Shown here: positions 33,582 through 34,293 of the stretch, in pieces | How the letters are laid out: each line of letters opens with the position of its first letter | Position numbering within the stretch: position 1 is the first letter of the stretch | Position numbers and translations under genes: made by a program | Notes under the pieces: generated by a model | What the model was told of the DNA's origin: nothing | The model's input: the letters and a program-made list of their open reading frames with translations, nothing else | Databases searched by the model: none | Assembly: GCA_021324255.1 (NCBI GenBank) | Contig: JAJPJL010000078.1 | Location: forward strand, 1 to 34,293 | Length of the DNA stretch: 34,293 nt | Reading direction: 5' to 3' | DNA from: Bacillota bacterium | Lineage (GTDB): Bacteria > Sysuimicrobiota > Sysuimicrobiia > Sysuimicrobiales > Segetimicrobiaceae

Positions 33582-34178
33582 CTACGGCGGCGTCACCGCG
33601 ACCGTGGCGCGATCCGTCCACCACTTTTGCAGCGGATGGGACACGCTGTCATCGGTGAAGTCCTCGACGACGATCACGCCGTCGGCACCCCCGTCGACCA
33701 CCGCGACCCCGACGAACCGGTAGGCCGGATACAAGATGTTGGCCCGATGCGGCGCGCTCGCCATGAGGGCGTCGTGCGCGGCCATCACGCCGTCGGCGTA
33801 GGCGAGATTTTCACCGACGGTCCGCACGCGCACGCCCGCTTCCACGATGCGGTCTCGCGGCGTCCGGCCGTCCGGCGATATGTGCGTGAGCGTGCCGCGC
33901 GCAAACAGGTCCTCGCCGTACGCCTGCGCCACGCGCCGGAGGGTGTCGTGCGGCATCAAGGGCACGAGCCCCGCCGCGACGCGCGTCTCGTTGAGCAGGT
34001 TGAGCACGGTCATGGCGAGATCGGCGCGAACCGGCGCCGCTTGCACATGATAGGGAAGCGCGTACGCCAGCGGCTCGCCCCCGAGCACCCGCGGAGCCGG
34101 TCCGGCCGGCGGCGCGGGCGCGGCGGGCGCGCCGGCGAGCATGGCGAGCGCGCAGACAAAACACAACCAGCCGCGAAT
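33582..34178 (-). CDS. Secreted CAP-domain (SCP/PR1-like) protein
   Basis: About 198 residues. Residues after the signal form a bacterial CAP domain: LLNETRVAAGLVPLMPHDTLRRVAQAYGEDL, then GTLTHISPDGRTPRDRIVEAGV, GENLAYADGVMAAHDALMASAPHRANILYPAYRFVGVAVV. The usual His/Glu cavity residues (HIS, GEN, HRAN) are present. Start choice: TTG 34166 leaves a signal peptide without a basic residue. ATT at 34178, with GGAGGA 8 bases upstream, gives IRGWLCFVCALAMLAG, a normal signal peptide; I use it. Extracellular; function of bacterial CAP proteins is poorly known. Controlled by the riboswitch upstream. Confidence 0.88.
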   Translation of the reverse strand: MRGWLCFVCALAMLAGAPAAPAPPAGPAPRVLGGEPLAYALPYHVQAAPVRADLAMTVLNLLNETRVAAGLVPLMPHDTLRRVAQAYGEDLFARGTLTHISPDGRTPRDRIVEAGVRVRTVGENLAYADGVMAAHDALMASAPHRANILYPAYRFVGVAVVDGGADGVIVVEDFTDDSVSHPLQKWWTDRATVAVTPP

Positions 34179-34208
34179 GACGGCAGTCCTCCATTCGGGG
34201 CTGGTTCC

Positions 34209-34293
34209 GGCTCTTCGGCGGCCCGGCCGACTTCGGTGGAAGTCCCGCGGCTTTGCGTCCCCGCCTCACGGCGGGTTTGCCCGTTCGGAAGCC
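34209..34293 (-). ncRNA. Cyclic di-GMP-I (GEMM) riboswitch upstream of the CAP gene
   Basis: Reading the minus strand from the window edge, the core matches the GEMM-I aptamer: GGGCAAACC, stem CCCGCC-GTGA-GGCGGG (34275-34260) with a GNRA tetraloop, GGGACGCAAAGCC, then P3 GCGGGACTTC-cacc-GAAGTC, and GGCCGGGCCGCCG. P1 can form from GGCTTC at the edge with GAAGAGCC (ending 34209). The 5' end may extend slightly beyond the window. The GGAGGA of the CAP gene follows 17 bases after the aptamer, so translational control or attenuation is plausible. Whether c-di-GMP switches it on or off is not visible. Confidence 0.9.

Follow-up and report, generated by a model that had tools for sequence, protein, structure and literature searches.

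We identified a class-I c-di-GMP riboswitch directly upstream of a gene encoding a putatively secreted CAP-domain (SCP/PR-1) protein, at the very end of the 34,293-nt stretch of DNA that we analysed (hereafter the window), and we propose that it controls translation of this gene, most likely as an OFF switch. The riboswitch-CAP association is non-chance, and control of the CAP gene by the riboswitch, as had been predicted from the letters of the window, appears well supported by comparative genomics. The sign that we assign to the window gene is a prediction of moderate strength.

The original prediction had recognised a c-di-GMP-I (GEMM-I) riboswitch here and had proposed a search with the Rfam model RF01051 as a check. 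This search, run on the window's own genome, gave a match at 34291 to 34214 on the minus strand with 61.9 bits, above the gathering cut-off of 35. With cmscan over the whole window, the sole match above gathering score was a full-length one to RF03167, c-di-GMP-I-GGC (34290 to 34213, minus strand; 62.5 bits, cut-off 59; E 1.2e-12). The aptamer drawn from both matches (34213 to 34290, minus strand) comprises part of P1, P2 with its loop, and P3. All the core elements that had been claimed for it could be read in the sequence, namely GGGCAAACC, P2 with a GUGA (GNRA) loop, GGGACGCAAAGCC and GGCCGGGCCGCCG. The bases that we take to be the ligand contacts G20, A47 and C92 (Vc2 numbering) are G, A and C in the window, and since these are the canonical ones, c-di-GMP is the likely ligand.

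The slightly higher score of RF03167 over RF01051 could speak for a variant RNA that prefers another ligand, either of the c-di-GMP-I-GGC class or 3',3'-cGAMP, and we consider this very improbable. The "GGC" of the model name presumably denotes a G in place of A47, and the RF03167 consensus reads GACGCG where the window has GACGCA; we rejected the window RNA as a true GGC variant, because the discriminating column is A, not G. RF03167 was moreover the best model in 14 of 21 matches when 15 CAP loci were scanned, despite a canonical A in those matches that were displayed. Position 20 is G in the window and not the A that would mark a cGAMP variant. A G20A change lets class-I GEMM RNA accept 3',3'-cGAMP (PMC6274999). 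Across the 94 sites of the window's family, G20-C22 was GGC in 86, AGC in 6 and GGT in 2, and the six aptamers with A at position 20 (G003_C250_672, G005_C11_38205, G007_C8_491, G003_C187_11629, G009_C27_41096 and G003_C30_25319) do not include that of the window. At two further family sites (G007_C4_21556 and G007_C48_154549) we saw by eye a second copy of the aptamer 3' half (GCAGCCGGGUUGCCGAA and similar) downstream, perhaps a decayed tandem aptamer.

The protein encoded directly after the aptamer matched PF00188 with 49.8 bits (E 7.3e-13; Pfam cut-off 21.1), which bears out its predicted CAP/SCP domain, and its N-terminus, read by eye, is signal-peptide-like. A profile of 13 CAP relatives matched the SCP-domain structure 4ifa (E 6.5e-18). 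We assigned the protein to neither YkwD nor DalA, because both NCBIfam scores fell below their cut-offs (82.3 bits against 171 for TIGR02909, the YkwD family, and 39.9 against 200 for the DalA model). For the alpha-beta-alpha CAP fold, a structure model built from 3 sequences had a mean pLDDT of 34.0. By eye, the 13 CAP proteins encoded after the switch in the family fall into two groups, the window type and the C39 type.

The gene, supported by PF00188, the below-cut-off TIGR02909 match and an alignment of 13 sequences, probably occupies 33582 to 34178 on the minus strand, and its start lies about 35 nt downstream of the aptamer. The open reading frame as called runs from 33582 to 34166, and the same-genus orthologues do not share the TTG at 34166. 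The Shine-Dalgarno (SD) sequence GGAGG (34188 to 34192, minus strand) was read directly and is kept in the G001 and G002 orthologues. Near it, no ATG, GTG or TTG is common to the window and its two closest orthologues, and for this reason we infer that the gene probably begins at the AUU at 34178-34176 (minus strand), 9 nt past the SD and kept in 3/3 same-genus orthologues. The G003 sequence, aligned by eye, has an ATG one codon upstream of this AUU. Identity between the window and G002 was 72/78 in the aptamer and 421/594 in the coding part.

In its genome (G000; 3.7 Mb in 142 contigs) the window corresponds to contig C49, which ends 2-3 bases past the aptamer. Contig C102 begins with exactly the 103 bases that end the window (34191 to 34293), and it provides the 5' side of the aptamer beyond the window end. 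The same 103 bases were found at four contig ends in two genomes of the same genus (C49 and C102 in G000; C53 and C116 in G001), so that joins at this place need care in either metagenome-assembled genome. The break fits an assembly collapse of two species, since the two orthologues are identical over their first 107 bases; with these same ends, a mobile repeat was rejected as its cause. In G002 a regulator, the aptamer and the CAP gene are consecutive on one contig, which supports the C102/C49 join, and by eye an export cluster likely lies beyond. Further along C102 we found genes for a TupA-like ATP-grasp protein, a LuxR-type regulator and a histidine kinase, as well as polysaccharide-export and Wzz-like genes (the Wzz score does not reach its cut-off); on the window side lie a sortase, an ABC exporter and a nucleotidyltransferase.

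We searched 43 genomes of the order, which seems to be the only one of its phylum in the genome set used, with PF00188 and obtained 35 matches in 17 genomes. Adjacency was judged from the coordinates of RF01051 matches relative to CAP genes and by cmscan of 20 CAP loci. A same-strand c-di-GMP-I element was directly upstream of 16 of the 35 CAP genes: 13 of 25 inside the window's family (two each in G000, G001, G002, G004, G005 and G007, and one in G003) and 3 of 10 outside it (L083, L086 and L088). The other 19 CAP genes have no such switch; two of these, G002:C88 and G002:C35, were scored as switch-free from the RF01051 list alone, and the CAP gene of G009, whose switch is downstream on the opposite strand, was left out of the 16. 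By chance, 0.016 adjacent pairs would be expected within a reach of 400 nt (Poisson P ~1e-42). In a control phylum (that of G046), none of 69 CAP rows from the 61 genomes sampled was adjacent to a c-di-GMP-I element, among 69 RF01051 rows of which 66 were above cut-off, and the nearest two CAP/riboswitch pairs were 4.3 kb apart and divergent. The two proportions differ strongly (Fisher 1.5e-9). Because the control phylum has no such case, the pairing is a feature of the order and not of CAP genes or of this riboswitch generally.

Within the family, CAP led the Pfam families found after c-di-GMP-I (13 of the 85 proteins scanned), followed by sigma-70 regions (7), T2SSE (PilT-like; 4), HD (4), GAF (4) and GGDEF (2), with prepilin-like N-termini recognised by eye; the non-CAP counts are rough, because mechanical calling of open reading frames put some of the 85 in a wrong frame. 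The starting set was 94 RF01051 rows, 93 of them above cut-off. It was reduced to 89 sites after dropping duplicates at the overlapping contig ends (C102, C116) and the flank-less G000_C59, G001_C60 and G010_C394, and to 85 proteins because one site had no open reading frame and three proteins were listed twice. Among the other targets, L013:3786-4900 (G000:C103) has a c-di-GMP-I element with a terminator-like hairpin before a sigma-factor gene, and a few kb further downstream there is a gene that by eye resembles a pilus ATPase (GspE/PilB).

Over 89 of the 94 family sites, the two flanks of each aptamer pair better with each other than swapped flanks do (mean duplex energy -12.1 vs -10.53; sd of the swapped means 0.30, minimum -11.48), and the observed mean lies beyond all 200 shuffles. 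We found two types of CAP leader. In the first, which accounts for 8 of the 13 family CAP leaders, the SD comes right past the aptamer and 4-5 of its 5 bases are inside the P1 duplex (8/8). By a stricter pattern, this layout is present at 7 of 13 CAP sites vs 10 of 76 others. An SD placed inside P1 should be hidden when the ligand holds P1, which would switch translation off. Terminator-like hairpins were scored at 53 of 76 non-CAP sites vs 4 of 13 CAP sites, and these four fall within the SD hairpin or the coding sequence.

The window has the second type of leader, found 5 times in the family and 3 times outside it. Here 21 nt separate the aptamer from the SD, and a hairpin encloses both the SD and the AUU. 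This hairpin, AACCAGCC-C-CGAAUG / CAUUCG-C-GGCUGGUU, extends from 34165 to 34206 (minus strand). RNAfold gave it -29.9 kcal/mol in the window, and the orthologues form the same one (-26.1 in G001 and -30.4 in G002; 60 nt folded). Part of its 5' arm belongs to the segment CGGAACCAGCCCCG (34196 to 34209, minus strand), which by duplex energy is a second partner for the 5' strand of P1. That strand (GGCUUCCG; 34286 to 34293, minus strand) has its outer bases on C102, as seen from the contig overlap, and its alternative pairing is with 34196-34209. In the window the duplex of CGGAACCAGCCCCG with the 5' P1 strand reaches -18.0 kcal/mol, and 20 of 500 shuffles were as good. Summed over the eight second-type leaders, the complement to the 5' P1 strand amounts to -131.9, whereas 500 shuffles averaged -97.1 and went no lower than -116.8; because the sequences are related, the shuffles overstate the significance. 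Taken individually, the leaders of G002, L083 and L088 are the only ones to come to about the 1% level, and G004_C15 has no significant complement to the 5' P1 strand (238 of 500 shuffles as good).

The mechanism that we favour for the window joins these pairings. At low c-di-GMP, the 5' P1 strand CGGGGCUUCCG would pair with the downstream segment CGGAACCAGCCCCG and prevent the outer half of the SD hairpin from closing, and ribosomes could then start at the AUU. With c-di-GMP bound, P1 would be locked and the downstream segment freed to close the 14-bp hairpin over the SD and the AUU, so that the CAP protein would not be made. In the paralogous CAP leaders a simpler layout would give the same outcome, in that the SD itself forms the 3' strand of P1. 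The second-type leader of the window thus also seems to fit an OFF switch, less firmly than the leaders with the SD in P1. In folds of shortened transcripts, the alternative pairs had probabilities of 0.06-0.50 in the window and 0.3-1.0 in three orthologues, with 0.00-0.06 for the outermost pair, and the inner 6-bp hairpin formed in both states. In full-length equilibrium folds the window SD was 0.21 unpaired in all three states, with or without P1. As the SD is equally hidden at equilibrium, a switch working in this way would be decided during transcription, while the RNA is being made, and this is why the sign for the window is only moderately strong.

These equilibrium folds do not discriminate the OFF switch from its opposite, in which ligand-bound P1 would open the SD hairpin and high c-di-GMP would induce CAP alongside pili and matrix. 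Other switches of the family do look ON, for example C39_716 and C39_951, in both of which an intrinsic terminator (GCUGGAC...GUCCAGC UUCUUGUUUUU in C39_716) uses the 3' strand of P1 as its 5' arm. We nevertheless consider an ON switch unlikely in the window: we found no pairing that would let P1 unfold the SD hairpin, the competing complement sits in the arm of that hairpin, and the paralogous CAP leaders bury their SD in P1 (8/8). Control could also be transcriptional. The window hairpin is followed by UUGUGUUUUGU, and with this U-rich tail it scored as a terminator-like element, as did its G001 counterpart; hairpin and tail could form an intrinsic terminator in the gene start when the ligand locks P1. 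Terminators are frequent in the family, as the non-CAP sites show, and L088 and L083 have by eye terminator-like hairpins between the aptamer and the SD. The G002 orthologue, however, keeps the hairpin without a U-rich tail and was not scored as a terminator, and the SD and AUU are enclosed in the window, G001 and G002 alike. We consider a terminator unlikely as well, more so than an ON switch. With translational OFF control as the preferred reading, one second messenger seems to drive paralogous CAP leaders via two different translational layouts.

Little is known about what bacterial CAP-domain proteins do, and the original prediction had suggested a surface or biofilm role for this one. The context agrees with it, circumstantially: in the same family, prepilin-like, PilT-like and sigma-factor genes likewise follow the switch, and an exopolysaccharide-export cluster is nearby. 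The biofilm part fares less well. The original prediction named no sign, and the one predicted here would have the protein secreted when c-di-GMP is low, which would suit a phase of motility or dispersal no less than one of matrix building. In three genomes (L009:3-1959 in G000:C39, G001:C4 and G002:C57) we observed three c-di-GMP-I aptamers within about 1.3 kb: a CAP gene with its SD in P1 is followed by two tandem aptamers that precede a gene for a Gly/Asn-rich secreted protein. The terminator 5' arm of the tandem aptamers is the P1 3' strand, which predicts an ON sign for the Gly/Asn-rich protein gene. We tentatively raise the possibility that the CAP proteins of the order are a dedicated riboswitch output of low c-di-GMP, opposite in sign to pili and matrix, which would aid in leaving or remodelling the surface layer, and that the CAP-OFF/tandem-ON locus of the three genomes is an RNA-only toggle. 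The conserved direct link to c-di-GMP across the order, together with the predicted sign, makes the question of CAP function testable.

The riboswitch class is known and its CAP target is apparently unreported. Like other c-di-GMP-I (GEMM-I, RF01051) RNAs, the window has a full-length aptamer above gathering score, whose pocket bases, so far as we read them, are canonical and which immediately precedes the gene of an exported protein; it differs in that the target is a CAP-domain gene, a pairing of which we found no report in the open-access literature searched. c-di-GMP-I-GGC (RF03167) is the best-scoring model for the window and differs from it at the column discussed above. Compared with bacterial CAP/SCP proteins, the window protein shares the PF00188 domain above the Pfam cut-off, and its similarity to the YkwD (TIGR02909) and DalA models is weaker. 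A further parallel is with Clostridioides difficile, whose class-I c-di-GMP switches acted as OFF switches, with a metalloprotease among the negatively regulated loci (PMC6200980). Those signs were measured in vivo, while we infer that of the window, where the platform looks translational; the OFF sign found there is also the one predicted here.
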